DNA of 42,001 bases from Acidobacteriota bacterium (GCA_012719355.1 JAAYAM010000063.1:1-42001), one strand, 5' to 3'; shown: positions 247 to 37,617, counted from the first letter of the stretch. Numbers and translations are program-made. The notes: generated by a model not told the origin, from the sequence alone.

Positions 247-248
247 CT

Positions 249-1918: not shown

Positions 1919-1929
1919 GATGTGTTCAC

Positions 1930-2361: not shown

Positions 2362-2723
2362 CGGCTCTCCGAGACGGCCACGTAGAGGCGGCCCGCGGCC
2401 TCGAACATGTTGAGGTGCGTACCGAGCACCGGTATTTTCGATTCCCTTGCCAGCGACAGTATTTCCGCGTTCGGCTTCTTGCCGCGCACGAAGACGACGC
2501 CGCATAGATCTGCCACAATTGCGGTTCGTATCACCTGAAGGTTCACGAGGCCCGTAAGGAGGAGCGTCCCAGGCCTGCTTGTGGAAAGGACATCGCTCAG
2601 CAGATCTGCGGCTCCGAATGCGTCGACATTGACGGACAGGTCTTCTCCATTGAGCACCTCCGCCTCCAGAATGTCGCGCACCTCCTCGAGTGTCAGCGTT
2701 GCAGCCTTGGGGACGGTTGCCAT
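2358..2723 (-). CDS. DRTGG-domain protein (upstream copy)
   Basis: 121 residues forming a single DRTGG domain, with LTLEEVRDILEAEVL at the N-terminus, GAADLLSDVLS near residue 37 and a VFVRGKKPNAEIL segment near 77. It is the paralogue of the gene at 249-596; the pair brackets the ATPase and the [FeFe]-hydrogenase-like gene. It starts 13 nt after hdrA and shares four bases with the following ATPase gene. A small regulatory or ligand-binding subunit is likely by family; no enzyme active site is seen. Confidence 0.85.
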   Translation of the reverse strand: MATVPKAATLTLEEVRDILEAEVLNGEDLSVNVDAFGAADLLSDVLSTSRPGTLLLTGLVNLQVIRTAIVADLCGVVFVRGKKPNAEILSLARESKIPVLGTHLNMFEAAGRLYVAVSESR

Positions 2724-2736
2724 AGTGAATCCTCGC

Positions 2737-3600: not shown

Positions 3601-3610
3601 GCCGGTCTCC

Positions 3611-4477
3611 TTATGCGAATTGCTCAGCCATCGCCTTTGCCGGAACTATGCACTCCCTGAGTCCCACTCCCTTCCAGTCCATGCCGAAAGCAATACCCAT
3701 CAGCTGGGTAAAGTAGACCACCGGCAGATTGAACCTGGTTCCATACGCCTTGTTGATGGCATTCTGGTATGCGTCCAGATTCAGCTGGCAAAGCGGACAC
3801 GTCACCGCAATGCACTGTGCGTCGTACTGCTCGGCGCACATCAGAAGGTTTCGGCAGAGCCGGAGCGCCACGTCCTCCCTCGTCCCCATGAGTGAGCCGC
3901 CGCAGCAGACGGTTTTCATCGGGTAGTACGTAGGGGTCGCTCCGATCAGGGTCAGCAACCTGTCGAGCATAGTCGGATTGTCGCTGTCGTCTTCAATGCC
4001 GTACGGCCTTGCAATCTGACAGCCGTAGTAGGGAGCCACGCGCAGACCCGTCAAAGGCCGCTTTATCCGGGACACGATCCTGTCGACGCCTGCGTCTTCC
4101 ATGACCGCCTGCAGGAAGTGCTTGGTGACCACTCCTCCGTCGTACCGGAGACCGGCCTCCGCGAGAGCCTCGTCAACCTTCTTCTTCATCTCGGGGAATT
4201 CGGACATGTATGACTCGGTCTTCCGGAGATTGGTGTAGCAGGCGCTGCACGGAGTGACCAGCGTGTCTCCGGTCTTCAGAGCCTGGCACAGATTGCGCGC
4301 GCTCAGGCAGAAGGAAAGAATCTCGTTGACGCTCATGTAGGCCGTGGCGCCGCAGCAATTCCAGTCTTCAAGCTCCAGCAGTTCCATCCCCAGGGCGTCT
4401 GCCACCGCCGAAACAGATTTTTCATAGGGGCGTCCGGTGGCTTCCAGCGAGCATCCGGGATAATAGGCGTAGCGCAT
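3611..4477 (-). CDS. hdrB: HdrB-like heterodisulfide reductase subunit B
   Basis: 288 residues. HdrB carries the catalytic non-cubane iron-sulfur clusters held by two CCG domains. Both are visible: the first runs from YYPGC at residue 9 through NCCG near 41 to PCSAC near 80; the second ends in VCCGG near 192 and CPLCQ near 230. The start MRYAYYPGCSLE is the family's usual N-terminus and overlaps the hdrC stop by one base (TAATG), which indicates coupling. In methanogens the substrate is CoM-S-S-CoB; in bacteria the physiological disulfide or electron acceptor of HdrBC is often unknown, so I name the family and not the substrate. Cytoplasmic. Confidence 0.93.
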   Translation of the reverse strand: MRYAYYPGCSLEATGRPYEKSVSAVADALGMELLELEDWNCCGATAYMSVNEILSFCLSARNLCQALKTGDTLVTPCSACYTNLRKTESYMSEFPEMKKKVDEALAEAGLRYDGGVVTKHFLQAVMEDAGVDRIVSRIKRPLTGLRVAPYYGCQIARPYGIEDDSDNPTMLDRLLTLIGATPTYYPMKTVCCGGSLMGTREDVALRLCRNLLMCAEQYDAQCIAVTCPLCQLNLDAYQNAINKAYGTRFNLPVVYFTQLMGIAFGMDWKGVGLRECIVPAKAMAEQFA

Positions 4478-5058
4478 TATTCACCTCCCAGTTCCTGTGC
4501 CTTGGCAACGATTTTGCGCAGCCCTTGTACGTCGCGCACCTTCCTGCCGAACAGCGGAAGCCTTCCGTGTGTATACAGGCTTAGCCCTATGGGGGCCGCG
4601 GAGACGGCGCCGAATGGATTGGCGGCCAGCATGAACCTGACCATCAGGGTGGTCTCGTGATTGCGGCCGTTTTTGTTTACCAGTTCGACGAAAATCCGGG
4701 AAAGCGCATTCGCCTTCTTGCTGCGCTGCCTGTTTTCCCGGATCGCCATCCGCTTGAGCATGTACATGATGTCCGTGATCTTGATCTCCTGCGGGCACCT
4801 GTGCGCGCATTGGTAGCAGGAGGCGCAGGTCCAGATCGTCAGGCTGTCCAGCACCTTGTCGCGCATTCCCGCTCTGATCATGGCGAAGACCTGCCTGGGA
4901 GTCTCTTCCATAGCCCAGGACACCGGACAGGACCCGCTGCAGGTCCCGCACTGAATGCAGTCCTTGATCTTCTCTCCACCCGGTATGCGATAGATCTCGT
5001 CCAGAAAACGGAGATCCATGGCTTGTTCATAAATCACCGTCTGTTGTGCGCCGTTCAT
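4477..5058 (-). CDS. hdrC: HdrC-like heterodisulfide reductase subunit C
   Basis: 193 residues with two [4Fe-4S] ferredoxin motifs, CIQCGTCSGSCP near residue 36 and CASCYQCAHRCP near 77, separated as in HdrC. It is the electron wire between HdrA and the HdrB active site. There is no membrane segment, so this is the soluble HdrC and not the DsrMK or HdrDE type. It is the first gene of an operon of at least eight genes on the minus strand. The ATG at 5058 has AGCTGGAGGTCATTC in front of it, a good ribosome binding site (GGAGGT). The leader region upstream is described under 5059-5495. Confidence 0.92.
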   Translation of the reverse strand: MNGAQQTVIYEQAMDLRFLDEIYRIPGGEKIKDCIQCGTCSGSCPVSWAMEETPRQVFAMIRAGMRDKVLDSLTIWTCASCYQCAHRCPQEIKITDIMYMLKRMAIRENRQRSKKANALSRIFVELVNKNGRNHETTLMVRFMLAANPFGAVSAAPIGLSLYTHGRLPLFGRKVRDVQGLRKIVAKAQELGGE

Positions 5059-5381
5059 GAATGACCTCCAGCTTCCCGGTCCGGTTCCTTCTGAAAGGCT
5101 TTCACCTGACTTGATGCAATCTCGTAAGACTTAGAAAATGAGAAGACTATGAGGGATGAAAATCCCCCTTTGAGGTCTGCAGCTGTGCGGTGCTGCTGCG
5201 ACCTCCTGCGATGTGAGCAAGAAGAGCGTGTGTTTTGTATCCAGTTGCATTTTGTATGCACACGGGTTTCCAGACAGCGGACCGCGCCGGAAACAAAAAC
5301 ATAAGTTTTCCTTATGCAATAACTTAAAACTATCACCTGCATGAAAACGGGATTTGTGCATGAGGGATCTCGTGGTCCGGC

Positions 5382-5396
5382 CCGGATTGAATCCGG
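5382..5396. repeat. Perfect 7-bp dyad (CCGGATT, 1-nt centre, AATCCGG)
   Basis: Arms at 5382-5388 and 5390-5396 around a single G. It lies 10 nt from the larger palindrome that follows and may be a second binding half of the same control region. No run of T follows on either strand, so it is not an obvious terminator. Confidence 0.6.
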
Positions 5397-5406
5397 TTAA
5401 ATCAAC

Positions 5407-5438
5407 CACGCAGGTGGGTCAAGTGACCCACCTGCGTG
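5407..5438. repeat. Perfect 15-bp inverted repeat, probable operator
   Basis: Left arm CACGCAGGTGGGTCA (5407-5421), two-base centre AG, right arm TGACCCACCTGCGTG (5424-5438). There is no mismatch. It ends directly in front of the presumed -35 of the acetyltransferase promoter and has no T-run after it, so a protein-binding operator is more likely than a terminator. It could also be the foot of an mRNA or DNA cruciform. I saw no second copy in the window. Confidence 0.75.
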
Positions 5439-5440
5439 CG

Positions 5441-5468
5441 GAGACAGCGATCCCGGTGCTGATATAAT
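5441..5468 (+). promoter_or_regulatory. Candidate sigma-70-type promoter for the acetyltransferase gene
   Basis: A consensus -10 TATAAT at 5463-5468 is preceded after 16 bases by GAGACA (5441-5446; four of six matches to TTGACA). The expected start point near 5475 leaves a leader of about 20 nt containing the GAGGTGA ribosome binding site. The 15-bp palindrome abuts the -35. Confidence 0.5.
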
Positions 5469-5495
5469 CCTATGAGAAGCCGAGGTGACTGCAGC

Positions 5496-6047
5496 ATGGC
5501 CACTGAACGCGAGAAGATGCTGGCAGGTGAGCTGTACGACCCTTTCGATCGGGAGCTGGTGGCGGCTCGCAAACGTGCGCGCGATCTATGCCATGCTCTC
5601 AACTCAGGACTGAATGCCGATACTGATTTCAGCCGGCGGATTCTGTGCGAGCTGTTCGGATCCGGCGGAGACTCTGTATGGCTCCAGCCGCCTTTTTACT
5701 GCGACTACGGCTCCAACATCGAACTGGGCGACCGGGTGTTTTTCAACTTCAACTGCGTTGTCCTGGACGTCTGCCGGGTGCGGATCGGTGATTTCACAAT
5801 GTTCGGTCCTGCTGTTCAGATCTATACACCCATGCATCCGTTGGACGCCGGAATGAGAAGAGAACGGGAATTCGGCAAACCGGTCACCATCGGGAGCGAT
5901 GTCTGGGTCGGAGGCGGAGCGATTATCCTGCCCGGTACCGCAATCGGGTCCGGTGCAGTCATCGGCGCAGGAAGCGTGGTGACGAGGGACATTCCTGAAT
6001 CGGTCTTCGCTGCCGGTAATCCCTGCCTGGTCATACGCAGAATTTAG
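5496..6047 (+). CDS. Sugar O-acetyltransferase, Maa/LacA/NodL family
   Basis: 183 residues. The N-terminus MATEREKMLAGELYDPFD is the maltose acetyltransferase (Mac) domain, and the rest is a left-handed beta-helix of hexapeptide repeats. Acetyl-CoA is the donor; the acceptor would be a sugar or a related hydroxyl compound. The catalytic His is visible in YTPMHPLDA (about residue 117), and the C-terminal coil has IGSDVWVGGGAIILPG and IGAGSVVTRDIP, typical of the family. I chose the ATG at 5496 because it has GAGGTGA at a good distance and gives the standard Mac start; the upstream ATG at 5472 lacks a site. Its TAG stop overlaps the TAA stop of the convergent DUF488 gene. Confidence 0.93.
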   Translation: MATEREKMLAGELYDPFDRELVAARKRARDLCHALNSGLNADTDFSRRILCELFGSGGDSVWLQPPFYCDYGSNIELGDRVFFNFNCVVLDVCRVRIGDFTMFGPAVQIYTPMHPLDAGMRREREFGKPVTIGSDVWVGGGAIILPGTAIGSGAVIGAGSVVTRDIPESVFAAGNPCLVIRRI

Positions 6048-6409
6048 TGGAGTCTGCGCTCCAGATAGGTCTTCAACGCGACAGCGTTGTTGTGTTCTTC
6101 GTCCTTCGAGCTGTAGAGCAACGTGACGGTACCCTTCCGGGCCGCCGTCAGGATCGGTTCCCAGGCGTCGCGGCGCGTATCCAGTTCTGCGAAGTACCTG
6201 GCACAAAACTCGTTCCATTTCGCCGGATCGTGCCCGAACCACCGCCGCAGATCAGTGCTTGGGGCCGCGTCCCTGAGCCAGCCGTCGACAGGAAGATCGT
6301 CTTTCCTAATACCTCGAGGCCAAAGACGCTCGACGAGGAACCTCTTCCCGTCGCTCCTGGAAGGCTGCTCGTACACTCGTTTGAGCCGGATACCCGTGTT
6401 TCGATCCAT
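6044..6409 (-). CDS. DUF488 family protein (YeaO-like)
   Basis: 121 residues. The family hallmarks RFLVERLWPRG (near residue 23), LRRWFGHDPAKW (near 54) and TLLYSSKDEEHNNAVAL (near 97) are all present. Function of the family is not established. It starts 3 nt after the glmS stop, and a GGTGGA site within the end of glmS serves it, so it is co-transcribed with glmS. Its stop codon overlaps the stop of the convergent acetyltransferase by two bases, so no terminator fits between them. Confidence 0.9.
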   Translation of the reverse strand: MDRNTGIRLKRVYEQPSRSDGKRFLVERLWPRGIRKDDLPVDGWLRDAAPSTDLRRWFGHDPAKWNEFCARYFAELDTRRDAWEPILTAARKGTVTLLYSSKDEEHNNAVALKTYLERRLH

Positions 6410-6412
6410 CCG

Positions 6413-8266
6413 CTATTCCACCGTGACGCTTTTCGCGAGATTTCTCGGCTGATCTACGTCGCAGCCGCGCAACTGCGCAACGTGATAGGCCAGAAGCTGA
6501 AGCGGCACAATGGACGCAATCGGGAGCAGGTAATCTGAAATAACCGGCACTCTGATGACGTGTGGGGAAAGCTGACTTATCCGGTCATCTTCCTCGCTTG
6601 CCACCGCGATGATTATCCCTTCGCGGGCCCGCACCTCCTCGATGTTGCTCACCATCTTTTCATGGCGGAGCACCGATTTCGGGTTGTCGGGTTCCATCGG
6701 GGCAAGCGCGACAACCGGAAGGTTCCGGTCGATCAGGGCGTTCGGCCCATGCTTCATCTCTCCCGCGGGGTAGCCTTCGGCATGGATATAGGAAATTTCC
6801 TTGAGCTTCAGCGCTCCTTCCAGCGCTATAGGGTAATGAATTCCACGCCCCAGATAGAGCGCATTGTCATGCCGGTAGATCTCCCGTGCAATCCGCTCAT
6901 ATTCAGGGGACTGATCGAGAAGCCGCTGTATGCAGTCGGGGAGTCTCGTCAAATCCGAGAGCAGCATGGCCGCCTTCCCGGGCTGCAGTCTCTTCCGCTT
7001 CTGTCCAAGATAGATCGCCGTCAGAACAAGCACCGCGAGCTGACTCGTGAATGCCTTGGTTGAGGCGACCCCGATCTCGGGCCCGCTCCTGGTGTAAAGG
7101 TTGCCGTCGCTTTCCCTCGAAAGCATGCTTCCCACGACGTTGCATATCGAAAGAATGCGTCCGTTCTTGGATTTCGCTTCCCTGACTGCAGCCAGTGTGT
7201 CAGCCGTTTCGCCCGACTGGCTGATCGCAATCACGAGCGAGTTGCGGTCGATCAGCGGATCGCGGTAGCGGAACTCAGATCCATAGTCGACCTCTACCGG
7301 GATGCGGGCGAGTTCTTCAATCAGAAATTTGCCCACCAGTGCGGCATGCCACGATGTTCCGCAGGCGACGATGTGAATCCTATCGATTCTGCCCACGGCT
7401 TCTTCGGTCAGGTTGGCTTCTTCCAGGAGGACTTGTTCCGTATCGAGTGACATCCTTCCGGCCAGCGTGTCCTGCAGGCTGCGCGGCTGCTCGTGTATTT
7501 CTTTCAACATGAAATGGCTGAAACCGCCTTTTTCAGCCATTTCGGAACTCCATTCGATTTCGTGCGGCGTGCAGGTGAGTGGCTTCCCCGAGAAATCCCG
7601 GAGGCTCACTCCCTCACGAGTCAATACCGCCATTTCCCCATCCTGCATAAAATAGACGGTCCGGGTATGGTCGAGCAGCGCGGGGACATCGGAAGCCACC
7701 AGCAACTCTCCGTCGGCTATTCCAAGGACGAGCGGCGGGCCCGACCTGGCCGCAACAATCATGTTTGGATGGTCTGCAGAAAGGAGGCAGACGGCATAGC
7801 TCCCGCGGAGCTGCTGCAGCGCGGCTGCTACCGCTTCCCGAAACGATCTGCCGGGGAGGAGCGACTCAACCAGGTGTGCGATGACCTCGGTGTCGGTGTC
7901 AGTCACGAAGCGGTGGCTGCTCTTCTGCAGCCTTGCCTTCAGTTCCGCATAGTTCTCGATGATACCGTTGTGGACAACAACGACTTTGCCTGTGCAGTCG
8001 CGATGGGGATGCGCATTTTCCTCTGTCGGCCGGCCGTGTGTCGCCCAACGGGTGTGGCCGATGCCGTACTCGCCGGTGATGGGATCATTCTCGAGAGAAC
8101 GGGCGAGATTGACCAGTTTTCCGGGCCGTCTTCTTATCTGAACTCTGCGGTTCCCGACGACTGCGAGCCCGGCGGAATCGTACCCGCGATACTCCAGTTT
8201 CTTCAGTCCTCCGATTATTACGGGGACAACGGGCCTGGGGCCCACATAGCCTACAATTCCACACAT
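6413..8266 (-). CDS. glmS: Glutamine--fructose-6-phosphate aminotransferase (isomerising)
   Basis: 617 residues (E. coli 609). It makes glucosamine-6-phosphate from fructose-6-phosphate and glutamine, the entry step to peptidoglycan and lipopolysaccharide amino sugars. The N-terminal class II glutaminase starts with the nucleophile Cys right after the initiator Met (MCGIVGYVG), with GIGHTRWATHG and HNGIIENYAEL following. Two SIS domains carry CGTSWHAAL, ISQSGETADTL and the C-terminal end LAKSVTVE. The AGGACTGAGGT sequence just before the ATG provides a ribosome binding site. I looked for a glmS ribozyme in the leader and saw none. It is followed at 3 nt by the DUF488 gene. Confidence 0.97.
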   Translation of the reverse strand: MCGIVGYVGPRPVVPVIIGGLKKLEYRGYDSAGLAVVGNRRVQIRRRPGKLVNLARSLENDPITGEYGIGHTRWATHGRPTEENAHPHRDCTGKVVVVHNGIIENYAELKARLQKSSHRFVTDTDTEVIAHLVESLLPGRSFREAVAAALQQLRGSYAVCLLSADHPNMIVAARSGPPLVLGIADGELLVASDVPALLDHTRTVYFMQDGEMAVLTREGVSLRDFSGKPLTCTPHEIEWSSEMAEKGGFSHFMLKEIHEQPRSLQDTLAGRMSLDTEQVLLEEANLTEEAVGRIDRIHIVACGTSWHAALVGKFLIEELARIPVEVDYGSEFRYRDPLIDRNSLVIAISQSGETADTLAAVREAKSKNGRILSICNVVGSMLSRESDGNLYTRSGPEIGVASTKAFTSQLAVLVLTAIYLGQKRKRLQPGKAAMLLSDLTRLPDCIQRLLDQSPEYERIAREIYRHDNALYLGRGIHYPIALEGALKLKEISYIHAEGYPAGEMKHGPNALIDRNLPVVALAPMEPDNPKSVLRHEKMVSNIEEVRAREGIIIAVASEEDDRISQLSPHVIRVPVISDYLLPIASIVPLQLLAYHVAQLRGCDVDQPRNLAKSVTVE

Positions 8267-8443
8267 ACCTCAGTCCTGTTTCGCGAAATGGGGAGCTCGA
8301 AGAGGGGCAAAAACAGCGCGACGGTCGCCTGTTCTCTACCGGCTCAGTCATCTGTGTTACAATCCCCGCGGCGCTACTAAGCCGTGCGAAGATTATAGAA
8401 TATGGCTCCCGATGGAGCAATATCGGCACTAAGCGAGGTGAAT

Positions 8444-8926
8444 ATGGAATTGAAAAATGTCCGGCTTTCCGTTCCCGATGACAGCAACATCATAGTCGGC
8501 CAGAGTCATTTCATAAAAACAGTCGAGGATCTGTACGAAGCTGTTGTCACCGGATGCCCGCACGCAAAATTCGGGATCGCGTTCTGCGAAGCGTCGGGCC
8601 CCTGCCTTATCCGCATCGATGGAAATCATGACGAGTTGAAAAGGATAGCGGCTGAAAACGCCATGACCATGGGGGCGGGACACACGTTTGTCATCATGCT
8701 CAAGAATGCGTTTCCGATAAACGTGCTGAATGCCGTCAAGAACTGCCCGGAGGTCTGCCGCATTTTCTGCGCCACGGCAAATCCGCTGGAGGTAGTCCTG
8801 GCTGAGACCGGGCAGGGAAGAGGAGTCATGGCCGTCATAGACGGTTACTCTCCAAAAGGGGTTGAGAGCGAAGGCGATGCAAAAACCAGAAGAGAATTCC
8901 TGAGGAAAATCGGATATAAAAGGTAA
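8444..8926 (+). CDS. Adenosine-specific kinase / AMP-forming domain family (PF04008)
   Basis: 160 residues covering the whole single-domain family annotated as adenosine-specific kinase. Conserved stretches are FGIAFCEASGPCLIRIDGN (near residue 47), GAGHTFVIML and IFCATANPLEVVLAETGQGRGVMAVIDG (near residue 105). The family occurs in archaea and anaerobic or thermophilic bacteria; its physiological role is poorly known. I chose the ATG at 8444, six bases after GAGGTG, over an upstream ATG at 8402 that lacks a site. An AT-rich stretch TTATAGAAT (8393-8401) may be a -10, without a clear -35. It is transcribed divergently from glmS. Confidence 0.85.
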   Translation: MELKNVRLSVPDDSNIIVGQSHFIKTVEDLYEAVVTGCPHAKFGIAFCEASGPCLIRIDGNHDELKRIAAENAMTMGAGHTFVIMLKNAFPINVLNAVKNCPEVCRIFCATANPLEVVLAETGQGRGVMAVIDGYSPKGVESEGDAKTRREFLRKIGYKR

Positions 8927-8993
8927 TGAATTCCCATCGGGAGACCGCTGAGTTCGAACAGGCTCTGCACTCCGTTACCCCTGAGCGGGAGAA

Positions 8994-11438
8994 ATGATGA
9001 ACGAAAACAGATTCAAGCTGGCTCCCGAAACGTTGCGCTGGAACTGCGATCCGTCGATTTTCTCATTTGCGACGACCGCCGATATACCGCCGTTGAAAGG
9101 GATCGTGGAACAGGAACGGCCGACGCGGGCCATCCGTTTCGGCCTCGACATTACCTCTCCCGGATACAACATCTACGTCAGCGGCCTGACCGGCACCGGA
9201 AAAACCACTGTCATCAAGACCTTCCTCGATGAGATTGCGGCAAAGAGGCCGCGTCCCGACGACTGGTGCTATGTCTACAATTTCCGGGATCCCAACTCGC
9301 CCACAATCCTCAGCCTGCCCGCGGGAACGGCCAAACGGCTGTGTACCCGGATGGATGAGGCGATACGGTTGCTGAAGGCCGAGATACCCAGGGCCTTTGA
9401 ATCGAAAGAGCATGAAGAGAATGTCAATCGGCTGCTGCAGGAGAACCAGGTCGTGCAGCAGCTTCTGTTCAACCAGCTTTCGGCCAAAGCCAAGGAGGCG
9501 GGCTTCGAAGTGGATGTTTCGAAAGTCGGGGTCAGCCTTCTGCCTGTCCTGGATGGAAAGACGGTTTCGGCGGAAGAGTACAAGAACCTCGAGCCCGAAA
9601 TACGGAACCAAATCGATGTGCGCCGGCAGGAGTTTGACGTCGAGATCCAGTCGTTCCTGCGCCAGGTGCGAGACGTGAACAAGGAGAGCCGGGACAAGGT
9701 CAGCGAGCTGCAGCGGAAGGTCGGACTGTACGTCGTGCAGGGGCGGATTGACGAAGTGCGCGAAGAATACGCCGACCTGCCTCATGTCATGAGTTACCTG
9801 GATGATGTGCAGGAGCATATACTCGATCATCTCGAGGATTTCGGCGAAGAGCCTGTGAAGGACGAGGCTGCCGCCGCGCAGATCCGGCTGGAGGCGCAGC
9901 CCGATCCCTTCATGAAGTACAAAGTGAACATAGTTGTAGACAACACCGATCTGCAGGGCGCCCCGGTCGTAATTGAAATCAACCCGACCTACCACAACAT
10001 GTTCGGGCGCGTGGAACGTCGGGCGCAGCTGGGAACGCTGTCCGCGGATTTCACTTCAATCCATGCCGGTTCCTTCGCGAAAGCCAATGGCGGATTTCTT
10101 GTGGTCAACGCCCGGGATGTTCTCATGAATCCGGGCGTGTGGGAGACCCTCAAGCGCACCATCAAGAACCAGGAAGTCAGGATTGAAGACCTGACGGAGC
10201 AGTTCGGCATGGTCTCGGTCCCGGTCGCGGGCATGCGGCCCAATCCCATTCCCGTCAACGTCAAAGTAATCATGATCGGCCACCATCTGACCTATCACGA
10301 GCTTTACAGCGTCGATGAGGATTTCCGCAAGATCTTCAAGGTCAAGGCGGACTTCGATTCCGAGATGGCGAGGGATGCGCATGGTTTCAGCAACTATGCT
10401 TCCTTCATCAGCTCGCGTTGCCGGGATGAAAACCTGCTGCAGTTCGACGCTTCAGCTGTCGCCGAGGTGGTCGAGTACGGAGCCTGGCTCGTCGACAATC
10501 AACAGAAGCTGTCTGCGAGGTTCAGCGATGTGGCCGATATCGTGCGGGAAGCGAGTTTCTGGGCGCAAAGCGCGGGCAGGAAGGTTGTCTCGGCGGAACA
10601 CGTCCGGCAGGCAATAGACGAAAAATGCTACCGATCGAACCTCATCGAAGAAAAAATCCGAGAACTGATGACCGACGGGACGCTGCTCGTTGACGTTACC
10701 GGGGAAGCGGTTGGACAGGTCAACGGGCTGGCGGTCGTCGATCTGGGAGATATCCGCTTTGGAAAACCGTCTCGCATCACCGCGAAGACATTTATCGGCA
10801 AGAGCGGCGTCATAGACATCGAGCGCGAGTCGAAGATGAGCGGGAAGATCTACGAAAAGGGCGTCCTGATCTTGAGCGGCTATCTGGGTGCGAAATTCGC
10901 CCAGGAACAGCCGCTCTCGCTGGCCGCAAGTCTCTGTTTCGAACAATCATACGAGGGTATTGACGGCGACAGTGCATCTTCAACAGAATTGTATGCTCTG
11001 CTGTCGAGTCTGTCGAAGGTTCCGATACGGCAGGGGATTGCAGTGACCGGATCGGTGAGTCAGAACGGAGAGATACAACCTATCGGCGGTGTGAACCAGA
11101 AGATCGAGGGGTTTTTCAACTTGTGCCGGGCCCGGGGGTTGACGGGAGAGCAGGGCGTCATGATACCGGTGCAGAACGTAAGGAACCTGATGCTGAGCAG
11201 GGATGTGGTGGCTGCCGTGGCAGCCGGCAAGTTCAGCATTTACGCCGTCAGTACCGTTGACGAAGGGATAGAAGTCCTGACCGGCCGGCGGGCGGGTGAG
11301 CGCGGTGAACGTAATTCCTATGAGAAGGGAACCGTCAACGCACTTGTCGAGCAGCGGCTGAAGGAATTCGCCGAATGCTTTCGGAGATATGCCGCGGAAG
11401 AAGGGCCCCTTCAGGTCTCTACGAGCGGGCGGAAATAA
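8994..11438 (+). CDS. Lon-like ATP-dependent protease (AAA_32 / LonB-type)
   Basis: 814 residues. The N-terminal AAA_32 region has the Walker A motif SGLTGTGKTT (about residue 63) and, later, a NGGFLVVNARDVLMNPG stretch; a coiled segment lies at about 190-290. The C-terminal Lon protease domain has its catalytic serine at S660 (DGDSASS) and lysine at K703 (GGVNQK), 43 residues apart exactly as in E. coli Lon (S679/K722). It lacks the LonA N-terminal substrate domain. By family it is a cytoplasmic ATP-driven protease of damaged or regulatory proteins; many bacteria with it also carry a canonical Lon. The site CGGGAGAA precedes the tandem ATGs at 8994 and 8997. moeA starts 23 nt downstream, probably in the same transcript. 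Confidence 0.93.
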   Translation: MMNENRFKLAPETLRWNCDPSIFSFATTADIPPLKGIVEQERPTRAIRFGLDITSPGYNIYVSGLTGTGKTTVIKTFLDEIAAKRPRPDDWCYVYNFRDPNSPTILSLPAGTAKRLCTRMDEAIRLLKAEIPRAFESKEHEENVNRLLQENQVVQQLLFNQLSAKAKEAGFEVDVSKVGVSLLPVLDGKTVSAEEYKNLEPEIRNQIDVRRQEFDVEIQSFLRQVRDVNKESRDKVSELQRKVGLYVVQGRIDEVREEYADLPHVMSYLDDVQEHILDHLEDFGEEPVKDEAAAAQIRLEAQPDPFMKYKVNIVVDNTDLQGAPVVIEINPTYHNMFGRVERRAQLGTLSADFTSIHAGSFAKANGGFLVVNARDVLMNPGVWETLKRTIKNQEVRIEDLTEQFGMVSVPVAGMRPNPIPVNVKVIMIGHHLTYHELYSVDEDFRKIFKVKADFDSEMARDAHGFSNYASFISSRCRDENLLQFDASAVAEVVEYGAWLVDNQQKLSARFSDVADIVREASFWAQSAGRKVVSAEHVRQAIDEKCYRSNLIEEKIRELMTDGTLLVDVTGEAVGQVNGLAVVDLGDIRFGKPSRITAKTFIGKSGVIDIERESKMSGKIYEKGVLILSGYLGAKFAQEQPLSLAASLCFEQSYEGIDGDSASSTELYALLSSLSKVPIRQGIAVTGSVSQNGEIQPIGGVNQKIEGFFNLCRARGLTGEQGVMIPVQNVRNLMLSRDVVAAVAAGKFSIYAVSTVDEGIEVLTGRRAGERGERNSYEKGTVNALVEQRLKEFAECFRRYAAEEGPLQVSTSGRK

Positions 11439-29483: not shown

Positions 29484-29936
29484 TCAAGAGATCCTTTTCA
29501 GATATCCTGTTGCTATTACAATACTCACGATGACTATTGCACTCATGACAGTCATTTGAGGGCCGGCCGTCTCGGTATTGATCGCCATCGAGACGATTGC
29601 AATACCCATCAGCGCGAAAAACACAAGATAAGGGACGGCCAGAACCAGGCCCAGAGTCCTTTTCCTCAAGAGCAGGACCGCGACAATAAACGCTCCCGGC
29701 AACAGCAGTGACAGATCCAGCACATGGATCGGATTGACCCACAACCCTACCTTTTCCAAGTCCTGCGGAATCCCGCCGCGCTTCAGGCCCCCTGTGATGT
29801 CAACGAGCCACAGGAGAGAGAACAGGACCGCTACTGTCGCCAATAGGATGCTTGCCGGTCCTGTCCGTACAGACGCCAGTGATCTCTTAACCGGATGAAC
29901 CCCTTTTGCATATGAAATCCGTCTGATACGCGGCAA
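29484..29936 (-). CDS. Small four-helix membrane protein of unknown function
   Basis: About 150 residues with four predicted membrane helices (ASILLATVAVLFSLLWLV, LDLSLLLPGAFIVAVLLL, LGLVLAVPYLVFFALMGIAI, VMSAIVIVSIVIATGY) and a basic N-terminus. The only fairly distinctive stretch is LWVNPIHVLDLSLLLPG between helices one and two. I do not recognise a characterised family. The start is uncertain: no in-frame ATG precedes the first helix, and the TTG at 29936 just after the mazG stop is the only early start codon I find. It is the second gene after mazG. Confidence 0.6.
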   Translation of the reverse strand: MPRIRRISYAKGVHPVKRSLASVRTGPASILLATVAVLFSLLWLVDITGGLKRGGIPQDLEKVGLWVNPIHVLDLSLLLPGAFIVAVLLLRKRTLGLVLAVPYLVFFALMGIAIVSMAINTETAGPQMTVMSAIVIVSIVIATGYLKRIS

Positions 29937-30781: not shown

Positions 30782-30861
30782 TAAAGTCATTTACGATTCG
30801 ATCCTGACGAATTAGGATGACAGATTACTATAGAACTGAAACGCCATTTCCAGGGAGCATG

Positions 30862-32631
30862 ATGCTTCGACGTTTTGCTTTTCCTCTTCTTCTGCTGGTT
30901 GTTCTTCTGGTTTATCTGGGCACCGCCGGTGGGCGAGCCATTCTGGATGACGGGGATGCCCTGTACGCCCACATCGCTCAAGAGATGGTGAGAAGCGACG
31001 AGTGGGTTACCCCATACGCGAATGGGGTACGGTTTCTCGACAAGCCGCCCATGATGTACTGGCTTATGGGCTTCGGGTACAGGATTTTCGGTTTCACCGA
31101 GTTCGCCGCCCGTCTCCCTTCGGCACTGGCTGTGATTGGAATCGGAGTCGTCGTCTTCATGACGACCAGGAAGTGGGCGGGCCACAATGCCGCGATAGTC
31201 GCATTCACTGCATCGACTCTGTGCATCGGCACGTTTCTGTTCACCCGCATGGTCTTTCCTGACATCCTGTTTCTCTTTTTTCTCACGCTGTCACTCAAAG
31301 GCTTTCTCGAATGGTACATGGATGAACGGAACCCGCTCTTACCGGCGCTGCTGTTCTACGCGGCGGCGGCAGGAGCGGTGTTGAGCAAGGGGTTGATCGG
31401 GCTGGTCTTCCCGGCGGCAATCATCGGGCTGTTTACTCTCTGGTCGGGGAATATCCGCCGCCTCCTGCATTTCAGGATCCTGCCGGGAACGCTCCTTTTC
31501 GCCGTGCTTGCCCTCCCATGGCATATACTGGCGGCTCAGAGAAATCCCGGATTCCTCTGGTATTACTTCGTGAATGAACAGTTCCTGCGGTTCCTCGGGA
31601 AGCGACAGCCTTTCGATTACGAATCAATTTCACTGCCGGTCTTCTGGGGCCTCGTGCTCGTATGGATTTTCCCGTGGAGCGCCTTTCTCCCTGCCGTACG
31701 CCATACGGTTGCGAAGCTCACCAGCCAGGACGCCGGCACGCGGGCTCTGATACGGCTCAACCTCTGCTGGATCATCGTGATGCTCGTCTTCTTTTCCCTG
31801 TCGTCCCGTATCGAGCACTACTCGCTCCCGATCTTCGCTCCTTTGGCGATGCTTATCGGCGTCACCCTTGCTCCCGGGCAGCTGTTCGGACCGGGCGACT
31901 TCAGGCGCCAGCGTTCGGTCGACCGTTGTTTCGCCTTTCTCGGGCTCCTGGGCGGTCTTGTCGGGATCTCTCTGATCGGTGCGGCATTGTGGGCCTACGG
32001 CCTGTTGGCGGGACCTTCCCTGCAAGGCGCGGGCACCGGGCGCCTCCATGCATATAAGTACTACTTCGCTCCGCTTTTCGACATGCCGCCGGAAGTGCTG
32101 GCAAAACTGGCATATCCTTTGGCGGGCACCTGTGGCGCCCTCGTTGCGGGGCTGTTGCTCGCGTGGTTTTTGAATCGCAGGGGGGCGCGCCTGGCCGCCG
32201 TGTCGGCGCTCTCACTGATGATGACCGGCTTCTGCTTCTTTGCCTTCCAGAGCATCGGGATATGCGAGGAGATGATTTCCTCGAAGCGGTTCGGGGAGAC
32301 CCTGGAACGCATTTACCGGCCTGGAGATGACGCGATCATCGTCGGGGATTTCGAGACGGCGAATTCCGTCAATTTCTATGCTCCGGCGATTCTGCGCATC
32401 TGTGAAGGGTCAGCGGCTCTGCTGCAGTGGGGAATGAATTACCCTGATGCTCCCGGGCTTATCGTCAGCCGCAAAGAACTACTCGAGAAATGGTCGGGTC
32501 CCCGCAGAGTCTTCCTGATTGCTCCGGAAAAGGGTGAAATCGTCGAAAGTCTTGACCCTCTTTACGTCCTGGTGCGTTCAGGCGGGCGCGTCCTCCTCTG
32601 CAACCAGGATATCGATTTTCCGGTCCATTGA
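30862..32631 (+). CDS. ArnT-like lipid-linked sugar transferase (GT83/PMT family)
   Basis: 589 residues from this start. A polytopic GT-C enzyme with about 12 helices. The periplasmic catalytic loop reads LDDGDALYAHIAQEMVRSDEWVTPYANGVRFLDKPPMMYW, matching the ArnT pattern (acidic pair, YA.IA.EM, DWVTP, F.KPP..YW). ArnT enzymes move an amino sugar from undecaprenyl phosphate to lipid A in the periplasm. The C-terminal 110 residues form a soluble domain, again as in ArnT. I chose ATG 30862 because AGGGAG lies just before it and the first helix (FAFPLLLLVVLLVYLG) begins there; an ATG at 30817 in the same frame has no proper site. It converges on the operon holding the ArnB-like, EamA, HpnK and HpnI genes. 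Confidence 0.85.
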   Translation: MLRRFAFPLLLLVVLLVYLGTAGGRAILDDGDALYAHIAQEMVRSDEWVTPYANGVRFLDKPPMMYWLMGFGYRIFGFTEFAARLPSALAVIGIGVVVFMTTRKWAGHNAAIVAFTASTLCIGTFLFTRMVFPDILFLFFLTLSLKGFLEWYMDERNPLLPALLFYAAAAGAVLSKGLIGLVFPAAIIGLFTLWSGNIRRLLHFRILPGTLLFAVLALPWHILAAQRNPGFLWYYFVNEQFLRFLGKRQPFDYESISLPVFWGLVLVWIFPWSAFLPAVRHTVAKLTSQDAGTRALIRLNLCWIIVMLVFFSLSSRIEHYSLPIFAPLAMLIGVTLAPGQLFGPGDFRRQRSVDRCFAFLGLLGGLVGISLIGAALWAYGLLAGPSLQGAGTGRLHAYKYYFAPLFDMPPEVLAKLAYPLAGTCGALVAGLLLAWFLNRRGARLAAVSALSLMMTGFCFFAFQSIGICEEMISSKRFGETLERIYRPGDDAIIVGDFETANSVNFYAPAILRICEGSAALLQWGMNYPDAPGLIVSRKELLEKWSGPRRVFLIAPEKGEIVESLDPLYVLVRSGGRVLLCNQDIDFPVH

Positions 32632-32640
32632 AATTGCGGA

Positions 32641-33756
32641 TTATCCTGTGACTTCTTTCAAGGCACGAAGGACGTGGCGCGCCTGCTCTTCCTCCATGCC
32701 GCTGAATACCGGCAGACAGATGTGCCTGGCACACAGGTCTTCCGACAGCGGCAGCGGACGCGACCGGTATTTCTGAAAGACGGGCTGGATGTGGAGCGGT
32801 TCCTCGTATACTTCTCCCGCAAGAGACACTCCGTAGCGTTCGCGCAGGATGGACTTCAACTCTTTTCGGTCCCTCTTTTCCTTCAGGATGGCAATGTACT
32901 TGTAGTAATTGCAGAACCCGTCGGCCGGAATTGACAGCGTCTTCAAACCGCTGAGTTCCCTGAGCTTGTCGTCATAAATGGCCGCGATCGCCCTGCGCTC
33001 CGAAATCATCGCGGGGAGACGCTCCAGGTGCCTGAGCCCTATGATGGCGTGCGGTTCCGACAGGCGCCAGTTATAGCCCATCCGGACGTGAGCATTCACG
33101 GTGAAACTCGCCTTTCCCTGATCGCGGTAGATTTTGCATTCCTCAGCCAGCCGGTCTTCGTTCGTGACGATCATTCCCCCTTCCGCAGAGGTCATCACCT
33201 TGGTGGGATAGAAGCTGAAGGAGGAGGCTATCCCGAAAGCGCCCGCGCTGACGGAGCGGTATGACGATCCGTGGGCATGCGCCGCATCTTCAACCAGCCA
33301 GATCCCCCTGCGGGCCGCCAGGTCCACGAGGGCGGGCATCTGCGCCGAAACGATTCCTCCGATGTGCACGGCGACGATTCCCGCCGTTCTGCAGGTCAGC
33401 GCCTTCTCGACGGCTTCAGCGCTGATTCCGAAAGAATCCGGATCCAGGTCGACGAACACCGGCGTCCCGCCGGCATGGACGACGGCAGCCGCGGTGGCGA
33501 AAAAGGTGTTTGTCGGAACGAGCACGTCTTTGCCTTCGACTCCGAGCGAACGCAGAATTATCTCCAGCGCGCTCGTTCCACTGTTTACCGCTATCGCGTG
33601 TCGTACGCCGCAGAGTCGGGCGAATTTCTCCTCGAATTCGGCGCCGTATTTCCCTAGCGTGAGCTGTCCGGTCGCCAGAACTTCCTGAATCCGTTCGGCG
33701 ATCCATGCCCTGTCTTCCGGCAGGAACTGAATTTTTGCCGCAGGAACCTGCATCAT
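32641..33756 (-). CDS. DegT/DnrJ/EryC1/StrS sugar aminotransferase (ArnB-like)
   Basis: 371 residues. A PLP-dependent aminotransferase acting on nucleotide-linked keto sugars. Landmarks are VNSGTSALEIILRSLGV (cofactor phosphate site), VPTNTFFATAAAVVHAGGTPVFVD, LVEDAAHAHGS (Asp that binds the pyridine nitrogen) and the Schiff-base lysine K186 in SFYPTKVMTSAEGG, close to K188 of ArnB. The fourth-position amino transfer of ArnB/PglE-type enzymes is likely, but the substrate cannot be read from sequence. Last gene of the minus-strand operon starting at pdxB; tandem ATGs at 33756 and 33753 follow AAGGAAGGA. Confidence 0.9.
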   Translation of the reverse strand: MMQVPAAKIQFLPEDRAWIAERIQEVLATGQLTLGKYGAEFEEKFARLCGVRHAIAVNSGTSALEIILRSLGVEGKDVLVPTNTFFATAAAVVHAGGTPVFVDLDPDSFGISAEAVEKALTCRTAGIVAVHIGGIVSAQMPALVDLAARRGIWLVEDAAHAHGSSYRSVSAGAFGIASSFSFYPTKVMTSAEGGMIVTNEDRLAEECKIYRDQGKASFTVNAHVRMGYNWRLSEPHAIIGLRHLERLPAMISERRAIAAIYDDKLRELSGLKTLSIPADGFCNYYKYIAILKEKRDRKELKSILRERYGVSLAGEVYEEPLHIQPVFQKYRSRPLPLSEDLCARHICLPVFSGMEEEQARHVLRALKEVTG

Positions 33757-33822
33757 TCCTTCCTTTCTACCGTCTGCAAACCGGTGTGATGAAACCGTAG
33801 GTCCGCCGTATCCGACCGCCGC

Positions 33823-34206
33823 TCAGGCGTCCCCACCTCCGCGGGCGATAAGGATCACTCCAACCACTACGAGCGCGATTCCGCACCAGCGCGTCGGTGG
33901 AACGCTTTCCTTCAGGATCGTGACCGCGAGGAAAGCCGCAAACCCGTATTCGATGGCTGTCATCGGAAGCGCCACCGTAACACCGGTCCATGACAATGCC
34001 GCCAGAAACAGAAAATAAAAAACGGCATTGAGAACGGTGCCTCCGATAACGTAAGGATTGCAGAGCGCATGCCAGAAGTATGCGATCACCTGCATGGGAG
34101 CATAGTTCTCGAGGCTCCCGACCTGCAGCATTCCACGCCTCACCAGGATCTGGCCATAGGCCGCCGAGCCGGCGGCAATAGTCATTGCGATAATAACCCG
34201 CAGCAT
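33823..34206 (-). CDS. EamA/SMR-like small transporter (ArnE/F-type flippase candidate)
   Basis: 127 residues with four membrane helices, one EamA unit: MLRVIIAMTIAAGSAAYGQILVRRG, YVIGGTVLNAVFYFLFLAALSWT, VALPMTAIEYGFAAFLAVTILKE and CGIALVVVGVILIARGG. The pattern GQILVRRGM, LxxALSWTxVTVALPMTAIEYGFAAFLAVTILKE is that of ArnE/ArnF and related small multidrug-resistance-like proteins, which flip lipid-linked amino sugars across the inner membrane. Such proteins act as dimers; only one gene is present. It starts 19 nt after the YdjC/HpnK-like gene. Confidence 0.85.
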   Translation of the reverse strand: MLRVIIAMTIAAGSAAYGQILVRRGMLQVGSLENYAPMQVIAYFWHALCNPYVIGGTVLNAVFYFLFLAALSWTGVTVALPMTAIEYGFAAFLAVTILKESVPPTRWCGIALVVVGVILIARGGGDA

Positions 34207-34225
34207 TCTATTCTCCGTTTCCTTG

Positions 34226-35095
34226 TCAGATATCGCTGAATGCGATCCTTTCAGCCCGTTGAACCTGAAGTGCCCGTCGGAGTGATTCGCTTACCAGGGC
34301 ACTGTACTCGTCCTGGTGCCGATAGCGAGGCATCGTGCTATCTATTTCCTCGCAGCGGCCCGTCGCCGGATGGAAGCAGAATTCCGTGATCCCATCCGGC
34401 AGATTGGCCACAAGCCTGAGCGCAAGCTCTTCCGTCATGGCTCCGCTGTCATTCATGCCGAACAGATAATCGTTGTGGCGGATTCCCGCTCTGCGAAGCA
34501 TCAGCTTCATGACTGTTATCCAGGGATACAGAAACATCCAGGAGCACAATCTGGGCCCGAGAGATTTCCCGGACGCCTTCCAGGAAATGAACGGCGGTTC
34601 ATTAGGGAGCCGGACTCCCTTGACGCCGTACTCCTTTCCCGCCTTCACGATGATCCGCAGCACCGTTGGATGCAGGTGCATGTGATTGTGCGCATCAACG
34701 TGGTCCAGCTTCAGTCCTGTACCGCAGAACCTTTCAAACTGCGCGCGGATCTCGTCTTCAAGCTGCGACCGTATTCCCGAACGAAAGAAAAATCTGAATC
34801 CCGCGCGCACAAGATCCGCAGGAAATTTCCCGCTGCCGTCAACCAGATCCGGGATGCGCCGGGGGTCGAGAACCGGCGTGCCTTCGACCAGCGTCAGGTG
34901 CAGTCCGACCTTGAGTGACGGGTGCTCCTTTGCTGCTTCAGCCGCCTCCTGCCAGTACTTCTCTCCAACCATAAGGCTGGCGGCTGTGAGGATCCCGCTC
35001 CGGTGCGCTTCGATGATGGCCGCGTTGACCTGCGGCGCAAGGCCGAAATCATCACCGGTCACAATGATTTTTTTCAAGCCGCGAGGGATCAACAC
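34226..35095 (-). CDS. hpnK: YdjC/HpnK-family carbohydrate deacetylase
   Basis: 289 residues. YdjC-fold deacetylases remove the N-acetyl group from amino sugars; HpnK acts on a hopanoid-linked GlcNAc and NaxD on an undecaprenyl-phosphate-linked one. Catalytic and metal residues are visible in KKIIVTGDDFGLAPQVN (the DD pair), VGLHLTLVEG, LDHVDAHNHMHLHPTV (His ligands) and EFCFHPATG. The C-terminal half has MLRRAGIRHNDYLFGMNDSG, typical of HpnK. GTG start at 35095, one base after the HpnI-like stop, so the two are coupled; a longer in-frame extension overlaps that gene and is unlikely. Substrate undecided between hopanoid and lipid A type. Confidence 0.88.
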   Translation of the reverse strand: MLIPRGLKKIIVTGDDFGLAPQVNAAIIEAHRSGILTAASLMVGEKYWQEAAEAAKEHPSLKVGLHLTLVEGTPVLDPRRIPDLVDGSGKFPADLVRAGFRFFFRSGIRSQLEDEIRAQFERFCGTGLKLDHVDAHNHMHLHPTVLRIIVKAGKEYGVKGVRLPNEPPFISWKASGKSLGPRLCSWMFLYPWITVMKLMLRRAGIRHNDYLFGMNDSGAMTEELALRLVANLPDGITEFCFHPATGRCEEIDSTMPRYRHQDEYSALVSESLRRALQVQRAERIAFSDI

Positions 35096-35096
35096 G

Positions 35097-36278
35097 TTAG
35101 TGGTTCGCGGCGGACGCCGGCGAAACCAGGCGCCCGTCCCTGGTGAGAACAAAACTGTTCCCCCGCCAGATGGTCGTGCGCTTTGTGAAAGCAAGAATCC
35201 AGGTGGCCAGCGAGGCGATGTCTCTGAAAAACAACAGGCCCAGGCTGCGCAACCCTTCCCGGTCCCGGAGACCCCAGCCGAGAACGGCTGCAGCGCTGGC
35301 AAGGCGCGTGATGGCAGCCGCGGCCAGGACAGAAAGCCCTATGACGTCGCACATCCTGAATGCGGCAAACAGCAATGCAAACGGCACCGAACGGATAAGC
35401 GCTGTCGCAAAGAATGCCACGGGACGCGCCGCACGCGTATTCTGATCCCAGTAGACCTGATGGTCCCACCATTGCGAAGGGCTCTTGAGGTCTACAATCG
35501 TATCGACGAAATAGGGAACAATCGCGACTTCCTTCCCCATGCTCCAGATCCGCCGCCCCATCTCATAATCTTCAACGAGATAGTCCGAGAGACCCTCGAG
35601 TCCGCCTATCCGTTCAAGCGTGGAACGGTGCAGGGCGGCCGATGCGCCGAGGCAGAATTTCGACGCACCGCTTACATGCGCGAACAGGACGTTTGTCATG
35701 AAGTCCGCATTGAGCGTCAGAAGTTCCATCCGTTCAAACCACCTGGCTGCTCCCGCGGCCTTGTACAGAGTGCACGCGCAGCCGACTTTCGGATCGCTCA
35801 ACGGCGCCACAATGGTTTTCAGATAATCCGGGCGCAGCAGCACATCGCTGTCGCTGATCACGAGGACGTCGTGACGGGCATGCTGCAGTCCGCCGATCAT
35901 ATTGTTGATTTTCCCGTTCGTTCCTTCCCGGTGATTTCCAAACGCCACAGTGACTCGGGCCTCACCGAATTCGCGCTGGATCTCCTTCAACAGCGGAATT
36001 GCCGCGTCATCGGGATCCTGCACGGAAAACACAACCTGGAACTCAGGGTAATCCTGAATGCATGTGCTGCGCAGATTCTCACGCTGGTTCTTTTCCAGCC
36101 CGTGAATCGGCTTCAGGATTGTCACCGGAGGCCAGGACTCGAAAGAAGGTTTCTTGCGGCGGCTGTGTCTCTTTCGGAAACGGATGCTGGCCAGTACGCA
36201 CAGAATGCCATATATGGAACCGCCGATGGCCGGGATGATCGAGAGCCATTGCAGTATGTGTCCCAGTGAATGCACCAT
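35097..36278 (-). CDS. hpnI: HpnI-like glycosyltransferase (GT21, ceramide glucosyltransferase type)
   Basis: 393 residues. An N-terminal helix, a GT-A domain and two or three C-terminal membrane helices. Motifs: VTILKPIHGLEKN at the start, FSVQDPDDAA (D1 region), NGKINNMIGGLQHARHDVLVISDSD (D2, DSD), LVEDYEMGRRIW (D3, the catalytic Asp) and HQVYWDQNTRAARP. In the last, the usual Arg of the (Q/R)xxRW motif is Tyr. HpnI adds GlcNAc to bacteriohopanetetrol; relatives act on other lipids. It starts 37 nt after pdxB with GGAGGT before ATG 36278. Confidence 0.88.
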   Translation of the reverse strand: MVHSLGHILQWLSIIPAIGGSIYGILCVLASIRFRKRHSRRKKPSFESWPPVTILKPIHGLEKNQRENLRSTCIQDYPEFQVVFSVQDPDDAAIPLLKEIQREFGEARVTVAFGNHREGTNGKINNMIGGLQHARHDVLVISDSDVLLRPDYLKTIVAPLSDPKVGCACTLYKAAGAARWFERMELLTLNADFMTNVLFAHVSGASKFCLGASAALHRSTLERIGGLEGLSDYLVEDYEMGRRIWSMGKEVAIVPYFVDTIVDLKSPSQWWDHQVYWDQNTRAARPVAFFATALIRSVPFALLFAAFRMCDVIGLSVLAAAAITRLASAAAVLGWGLRDREGLRSLGLLFFRDIASLATWILAFTKRTTIWRGNSFVLTRDGRLVSPASAANH

Positions 36279-36315: not shown

Positions 36316-37464
36316 CTACTTTCCTTCCATCACCACCTGGAATCCCAAAGCTTCCAAAACGCCGGCTAAGTCTACATGCATTTCAGCCAGTTCGACAGTG
36401 AAATGACGAAACTCGGGGCGCAGCGGGAAGCCGTTGCGCAACCTGTCGAAGCCCGCTGCTGCCTCCGCCCGCGAGAGGAAGCGAAGGTCCCTCAGAGCCT
36501 TATCGGTGCTTCTGACGTCGAATGCCTTGCGAATAACCGAGACAACAGCTGCCGCTCCCTCGCTCCCCGGGTCCGGAACAAGACGACGGTTTTCGATATT
36601 CGCCGCTGCCTGCAGACTCTGAGACTCGATTCCGAAGAACGCACTCAGCTCTTCACGAATCATATCGGTTGCCCGGATCTTTCCGTCCAGCGAGGTGCCT
36701 GCGATGTGAGGGGTGCCGATATCGACGGACTCGAGGAGGGAAAAGTCGATATCCGGCTCTCCTTCCCAGACGTCCAGAATCGACCCTGCAATGCGCCCCT
36801 GCTGCAAAGCCTTCTTCAGTTCAACTCCGTCCACCACCGGGCCCCTGCTGGAATTGATGATGAACTGCCGGGTCGAGAGGCGGGCCAGCACATCTCTGTT
36901 GAGCATCCGGTAAGTCGGATACGGTCCATCCAAAGTGAGAGGCACGTGAAAACTCAGTATGTCGGCGTCAAGCACCTCTTCGAAAGAACGGTACCGGGGA
37001 TCGCCGGTTGCGTCCCGCAGCGGGGGATCGCACAACATCACGTCCATTCCCAGTGCGCGGGCTTTCGCTGCCACGCGGGAGCCCACGTTCCCCACCCCGA
37101 TGACGGCAAGCGATCTGTTCTGCAGGTCCAATCCCTTTCGGACAGCGGTTTCGAACAAAGCCGTGAAAACATACTCGGAGACGGATTCGGCATTCGATCC
37201 GGCGGCATAGCAGAAATGAATGTTGTTTTGCCTCAGATAGCCTTCATCGATATGGTCTTTCCCGGCGCTCGCACCTCCGACAAAACGGACGGAAGTTCCG
37301 TGGAGAAGAGCCTTGTCTACACGGGTGACGGTCCTCACCACTAAAGCGTCTGCATCAACCAGATCTGCAGCCGCGATACGTCGCCCCGGAAGAGGGCGCA
37401 GTTCCCCCAAATTCGAAAAAGCTTCGTGGTGGAATGGCAGAACCTCATCGACAGCTATGATCAT
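36316..37464 (-). CDS. pdxB: Erythronate-4-phosphate dehydrogenase
   Basis: 382 residues (E. coli PdxB 378). It oxidises 4-phosphoerythronate in the DXP-dependent route to pyridoxal phosphate. A D-2-hydroxyacid dehydrogenase fold is clear: FVGGASAGKDHIDEGYL, the NAD loop VIGVGNVGSRVA, NSSRGPVVDG (Arg) and IGTPHIAGTSLDGK (catalytic His). The extra C-terminal dimerisation domain of about 80 residues (DLRFLSRAEAAAGFDRLRNGFPLRPEFRHF) separates it from ordinary 2-hydroxyacid dehydrogenases. ATG 37464 gives the family start MIIAVDEVLPF. First gene of the operon with the HpnI/HpnK/EamA/aminotransferase genes. Confidence 0.92.
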   Translation of the reverse strand: MIIAVDEVLPFHHEAFSNLGELRPLPGRRIAAADLVDADALVVRTVTRVDKALLHGTSVRFVGGASAGKDHIDEGYLRQNNIHFCYAAGSNAESVSEYVFTALFETAVRKGLDLQNRSLAVIGVGNVGSRVAAKARALGMDVMLCDPPLRDATGDPRYRSFEEVLDADILSFHVPLTLDGPYPTYRMLNRDVLARLSTRQFIINSSRGPVVDGVELKKALQQGRIAGSILDVWEGEPDIDFSLLESVDIGTPHIAGTSLDGKIRATDMIREELSAFFGIESQSLQAAANIENRRLVPDPGSEGAAAVVSVIRKAFDVRSTDKALRDLRFLSRAEAAAGFDRLRNGFPLRPEFRHFTVELAEMHVDLAGVLEALGFQVVMEGK

Positions 37465-37617
37465 CGGCAACCCTGAACCCCCTATATTGCAGTTATTCTG
37501 CACCAAAAGCAATGTTTAGGATGATGCCGCGCGCGTTGTCATTCTCTGGAACTGGAATCGAGGACGGAGAAGAAAGTCTGCACCGACACCAAAGAAAGTA
37601 GGTTATGATTGGGGGCC

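Follow-up and report, generated by a model that had tools for sequence, protein, structure and literature searches.

Gene content of the locus

The window analyzed here is a 42,001-nucleotide stretch of DNA from an Acidobacteriota genome (G000; 4.57 Mb in 377 contigs, with a rated completeness of 100% and contamination of 4.21%), to which the closest genomes by HpnI are Acidobacteriota MAGs. Based on Pfam and NCBIfam profile matches, we recovered at their expected positions all five genes named in a first-pass annotation of the sequence. Four of them lie on the minus strand, in the order HpnI-type GT21 glycosyltransferase (35097-36278), HpnK, a YdjC-family deacetylase (34226-35077), a small EamA/SMR-like membrane protein (33823-34206; PF00892) and a DegT/DnrJ/EryC1/StrS aminotransferase (32641-33756; PF01041, E = 1.9e-106). 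They are preceded on the same strand by a PdxB-like 2-hydroxyacid dehydrogenase (36316-37467), 37 bases upstream of HpnI. Judged from the shared strand and the intergenic distances (~20 to 66 bases), a single transcript is likely from the PdxB-like gene to DegT, and the HpnI-HpnK-EamA-DegT run is probably one operon. The fifth gene, encoding an ArnT-like PMT-family membrane glycosyltransferase (30817-32631), is on the plus strand and converges on degT with 9 bases between their ends, and thus lies outside this operon. The five-gene cassette originally described therefore holds for its four same-strand members and not for the ArnT-like gene, which is convergent and not constantly linked to them. 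Elsewhere in the window, a 150-codon membrane-like ORF without a Pfam or NCBIfam match (29484-29936) is located between MazG and RNase G.

The glycosyltransferase exceeds the curated hopanoid cut-off marginally (TIGR03472, 323.9 bits, cut-off 310) and its nearest solved enzyme is ceramide glucosyltransferase (E = 1.1e-25). Its initial description as a GT21 HpnI-like enzyme, in place of a DPM1/ArnC type, is upheld. In the HpnI tree the window sequence groups with 30 others in a divergent clade that spans Acidobacteriota, Nitrospirota, Alphaproteobacteria, Myxococcota and one cyanobacterium. This clade is separated, by a branch 1.18 changes per column in length (support 100/100), from the canonical clade, which comprises Burkholderiaceae, Methylobacterium and most Acidobacteriota HpnIJK clusters. 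Given this branch and an identity of 31-34% to Burkholderiaceae HpnI, the donor or the acceptor could differ. HpnJ-adjacent members are found inside the divergent clade (L011 and L023), which argues that this clade still serves hopanoids. A search of plasmids for HpnI retrieved the canonical clade only, with no divergent-clade member, and a plasmid search for DegT gave no match. In one Acidobacteriota family (f18), two HpnI-type genes are present in most genomes, and frequently one of them exceeds the cut-off while the other falls well short of it.

HpnK, whose start is probably the TTG at 35077 according to homologue comparison, scores 357 bits against TIGR03473 (cut-off 232.6). Its YdjC DD/His residues (D18-D19, H69, H139, H141 and H145) are invariant in 19 aligned sequences. 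The EamA protein reaches 33.3 bits against the ArnE model (E = 4e-8, cut-off 92); its fold model has a pLDDT of 72 and best matches the SMR proteins Gdx-Clo and EmrE, weakly (E ~0.4).

DegT has its PLP lysine, K186, in the motif SFSFYPTK, and both the lysine and the flanking motif are invariant in aligned relatives, so that it looks like a working DegT-type sugar aminotransferase. The label ArnB-like is right as to the DegT family and does not extend to ArnB itself: the score against the ArnB model (NF008658) is 194 bits for a cut-off of 631, and the nearest solved relatives are mostly nucleotide keto-sugar aminotransferases, perosamine synthetases being the closest. Similarly, the ArnT-like protein is homologous to solved ArnT (5ezm, E = 1e-28) and remains below the cut-off of the ArnT equivalog model (NF009784, 129.5 bits, cut-off 567). 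The PdxB-like protein (368.7 bits against the PdxB model, below the cut-off of 434) is perhaps not a genuine 4-phosphoerythronate dehydrogenase.

Conservation of the module across genomes

Loci with both HpnI and DegT were found in 23 genomes (the window, L004-L007, L012-L018, L021, L023-L026, L078, L084 and L112-L115), and their partners were counted by hand. HpnK is beside HpnI/DegT in 20 of the 23 loci, EamA in 16, the short-chain-type oxidoreductase SDR2 in 15 (one further locus ends too early to judge) and HpnJ in 5. In Acidobacteriota, Nitrospirota and Alphaproteobacteria, the recurrent partners of the divergent HpnI clade are DegT, usually an SDR enzyme and, in many cases, EamA proteins of the SMR-like type, single or as a pair. 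The extra aminotransferase that had been taken as a hybrid element of the set is thus real and conserved in relatives. L114 has HpnI-HpnK-SDR1-HpnJ-EamA-EamA-DegT-SDR2 on one strand, and L026 is similar. In the Nitrospira loci L014-L018, L112 and L115 a sulfatase/LtaS-like membrane protein follows the module. Upstream of HpnI, L018 has a histidine kinase and a sigma-54 type regulator, and such a regulator also occurs in L012.

A scan with the window DegT identified 12 Acidobacteriota genomes at an identity of at least 70%. HpnI is present in 12/12, and in 9/12 DegT is on the same contig as HpnI, within ~2.5 kb. All seven Nitrospirota genomes with DegT at an identity of at least 73% have HpnI within 6 kb. 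Two weaker DegT relatives (54% and 46%) come from genomes in which no HpnI is matched at E 1e-40. Identity of DegT to other phyla and families is mostly 68-77% (59% in one alphaproteobacterium); that of HpnK to its relatives is lower, at 48-58%.

Within the Acidobacteriota, HpnJ and DegT appear mutually exclusive: the 56 genomes whose HpnI exceeds the cut-off divide into 42 with HpnJ, 12 with DegT and two with neither, and no genome combines the two genes. In one of the two that lack both (G273), the locus is cut by a contig end. This pattern is confounded by descent, the DegT genomes coming from three families and ten of them from one. DegT as a simple replacement for HpnJ was considered and rejected, as both are present in L013, L023, L026, L113 and L114. 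Nitrospirota and Alphaproteobacteria can carry both, and we therefore claim no replacement, given this co-occurrence outside the Acidobacteriota and the three families on which the Acidobacteriota pattern rests.

SDR2 is an NAD-dependent epimerase-type protein that usually adjoins DegT in relatives. It is not beside DegT in the window, and its best homologue in G000 (44%) is on contig C330, away from DegT. The nearest solved chain is UDP-glucuronate decarboxylase; this activity, which would resemble the ArnA dehydrogenase domain, was rejected since the Glu of the TSE motif aligns with Trp (TVW). A DegT-SDR2 pair at 54/58% identity also occurs in G098, a genome in which neither squalene-hopene cyclase (SHC) nor HpnI was matched. 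The locus (L090, contig C49 of G098, 10-10211) encodes DegT, SDR2, two MGDG-synthase-like glycosyltransferases, a PF01522 deacetylase and a radical SAM protein, as well as an ABC transporter, a HAD phosphatase and a class III aminotransferase. By its gene content, we read it as an amino-sugar glycolipid system of an undescribed kind.

EamA is 63-92% identical across phyla. Singly or as tandem pairs, it also occurs inside or next to HpnJ-type clusters, or else adjoins HpnI where the genome has HpnJ (L026, L035, L047, L053-L055, L094, L095, L113 and L114). Five related genomes that retain HpnI are missing EamA, so it is either not essential or replaced. In Burkholderiaceae (L118, L121), and also in L023 and L093, a lysylphosphatidylglycerol-synthase-like membrane gene takes its place, and by this position is a possible candidate hopanoid flippase.

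The two remaining neighbors are less constant. Of the loci read, no more than 3 have the ArnT-like gene next to DegT. Homologues stand beside DegT-SDR2 in L089 of G211 (55%) and L021 of G258 (43%), and a weaker PMT-family gene is near DegT-SDR2 in G089. It is absent beside the module in L004-L007, L024 and the Nitrospirota loci; we rejected it as a core part, and it is an optional, occasional extra member. The PdxB-like gene is directly upstream of HpnI in nearly all same-family loci (53-55% identity; split off in G219) and is not in the Nitrospirota loci. Its share in the function of the module is doubtful.

Linkage to hopanoid genes

G000 encodes two SHC proteins (702.6 and 639.7 bits, both over the cut-off) and HpnH (526.1 bits). 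One SHC is clustered with HpnD, two alcohol dehydrogenases, HpnA and IspH. The two zinc alcohol dehydrogenases, which are threonine/inosose dehydrogenase-like and lie between HpnA and HpnD (L038, contig C208, 13471-15728), are candidates for the step from ribosylhopane to bacteriohopanetetrol (BHT). The second SHC, 42% identical to the first, adjoins an RND efflux pump and its HlyD-type partner (L039, contig C211, 79-6541). The absence of HpnJ, pointed out earlier for the window, was confirmed and extends to the genome, where a profile search gave a best match of 139.7 bits for a cut-off of 577.6.

HpnI is associated with SHC beyond G000 as well. Among the 24 genomes with close HpnI relatives (G000 included), 23 have an SHC match, over the cut-off in 22, and HpnH is over the cut-off in 23. 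In a scan of 297 Acidobacteriota genomes, HpnI exceeded the cut-off in 56, and 53 of these also have SHC (Fisher test, 6e-37). The strongest single evidence for a hopanoid role of the module is a locus from another Acidobacteriota family (L084, G089), in which SHC-HpnH-HpnA-HpnG-like-HpnI-HpnK-EamA-DegT-SDR2 are arrayed on one strand; the HpnG-like gene scores 115.7 bits, below the cut-off of 187.1.

The first-pass annotation had proposed a hybrid system that decorates lipid A or another lipid, and had regarded two outcomes as telling against it. The first, a complete hpn locus elsewhere in the genome together with tight clustering of the two proteins with hopanoid HpnI and HpnK, is largely what we observe: two SHC genes, HpnA, HpnD and HpnH are present in G000, the array of L084 in G089 holds the module, and HpnK shares 46-47% identity with its counterparts in the HpnIJK clusters of Burkholderiaceae. 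HpnI is over the hopanoid cut-off but does not cluster tightly. The second, a genome devoid of lipid A genes, is not what we observe: LpxC is present in G000, so lipid A is probably made, and nothing ties the module to it.

Proposed function and comparison with known systems

We propose that the module serves hopanoid headgroup synthesis through HpnI and HpnK, a reading to which we assign a probability of about 0.8. In the known pathway, HpnI forms BHT N-acetylglucosamine, HpnK converts it to BHT glucosamine and HpnJ yields the cyclitol ether; in a species without hpnJ, Rhodoligotrophos appendicifer, 100% is BHT glucosamine (PMC12583986). For Acidobacteria of subdivisions 1 and 3, genomes that lack hpnK but carry hpnI and hpnJ have been reported (PMC5462960). 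The window is the converse of this pattern, with hpnI and hpnK and no hpnJ, and BHT glucosamine or a derivative is thus expected.

From what is published on HpnI and HpnK, we infer that HpnI would use GlcNAc, or else a related UDP-amino sugar, and attach it directly to BHT at the cytoplasmic face of the inner membrane, and that HpnK would remove the N-acetyl group to give a cationic amino-sugar hopanoid. Because HpnJ is absent, the minimal predicted product is BHT glucosamine. The remaining steps are more tentative. EamA, as a dimer, would move the lipid to the outer leaflet, and we lean towards such an outward flipping of the headgroup-bearing hopanoid. DegT and the SDR oxidoreductase might introduce a second amine, either into the sugar itself or into its nucleotide precursor; the added DegT leads us to predict this further amine, tentatively. 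This scheme keeps the outline first suggested, in which a glycosyltransferase loads an N-acetylhexosamine onto a lipid, a YdjC enzyme deacetylates it and an SMR-like protein flips it, and favors hopanoids over lipid A as the acceptor given the SHC linkage. In its full form, it would amount to an HpnJ-free headgroup branch in at least three phyla, in which DegT and SDR make or modify the sugar used by HpnI (e.g., a diamino sugar) and EamA proteins are general hopanoid flippases. We consider that its chances are somewhat below even.

A simpler explanation is that HpnI and HpnK make plain BHT glucosamine, and that DegT, SDR2 and EamA are neighbors with a separate envelope-sugar function (e.g., in LPS or another glycan). 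In its favor, BHT glucosamine is the sole BHP of Rhodoligotrophos, which lacks hpnJ (PMC12583986), and the G098 pair indicates that DegT-SDR2 is not bound to hopanoids, as it is found there without HpnI. However, that pair is again beside lipid-type glycosyltransferases and a deacetylase, of other families, which suggests that DegT-SDR2 acts on a glycolipid sugar. Moreover, every Acidobacteriota genome with DegT at an identity of at least 70% also has HpnI, and the seven Nitrospirota matches all adjoin HpnI, in several gene orders. We regard the separate function as rather unlikely.

We consider it improbable that the target of DegT is the hopanoid side chain, with DegT serving for instance as a non-homologous stand-in for HpnO that converts ribosylhopane to an aminobacteriohopanetriol-like product. 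DegT does conserve the residues expected of a PLP aminotransferase, and there is linkage to hopanoid genes, but its nearest solved relatives point to nucleotide keto-sugars, its link is to HpnI and HpnK and not to SHC or HpnH as such, and the DegT-SDR2 pair persists in the SHC-less G098. Least probable of all is the lipid A hybrid, in which the HpnI-like enzyme would load undecaprenyl phosphate, the HpnK-like enzyme deacetylate, EamA flip and the ArnT-like protein transfer the sugar, as in FlmF2/NaxD/FlmK. In its favor are the presence of LpxC, the family-by-family parallel with the Arn route and the adjacent ArnT-like gene, which recurs by DegT-SDR2 in two other genomes. Against it, HpnI and HpnK exceed the cut-offs of curated hopanoid families, HpnI is associated with SHC and the module is found within an SHC locus, the solved enzyme nearest to HpnI uses a lipid directly as its acceptor, and most relatives have no ArnT-like gene beside the module. 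Lipid A was thus rejected as the main target in view of the SHC linkage.

Hopanoids are bacterial sterol-like lipids. Few bacterial lipids are used more as biomarkers in sediments, and the source is inferred from the hopanoid headgroups. For Acidobacteriota, Nitrospirota and some Alphaproteobacteria, the conserved hpnI-hpnK-degT module predicts a headgroup that the known hpn genes would not lead one to expect. It also supplies candidate genes for the crossing of the inner membrane by headgroup-bearing hopanoids and for headgroups other than the cyclitol ether. In a literature search that left most subscription journals outside, we found no report tying EamA, DegT or a flippase to hopanoids. 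Within the literature searched, we read the module as a variant form of the known hopanoid tailoring system with extra partners, DegT and EamA, so far undescribed in hopanoid synthesis.

The Arn pathway, which places 4-amino-4-deoxy-arabinose on lipid A, offers a parallel aminotransferase, glycosyltransferase, deacylase, SMR-like flippase and ArnT-like gene. In contrast to it, the window has a GT21 enzyme (direct lipid acceptor) and a YdjC rather than an ArnD-type deacylase, SDR2 has Trp at the Glu of the decarboxylase motif, and the module is SHC-linked. Francisella FlmF2/NaxD/FlmK and Bordetella Lgm combine a glycosyltransferase, a YdjC deacetylase and a PMT-family transferase, like the window set. 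Their glycosyltransferase is of the DPM1/ArnC polyprenyl-phosphate type, whereas that of the window is GT21, and the window module is linked to hopanoid genes.

Rhodoligotrophos appendicifer has, as in the window, hpnI and hpnK without hpnJ, and the paper mentions no EamA or DegT partner (PMC12583986). With the HpnI-HpnK-HpnJ cyclitol ether route of Burkholderia and Methylobacterium, the window shares the HpnI and HpnK families, and its genome has SHC and HpnH. The complete route is not found in G000, as HpnJ is absent. The window further differs from it in that its HpnI belongs to the divergent clade and that, whereas Burkholderiaceae clusters carry the lysylphosphatidylglycerol-synthase-like membrane gene instead, DegT and EamA are added to the run.
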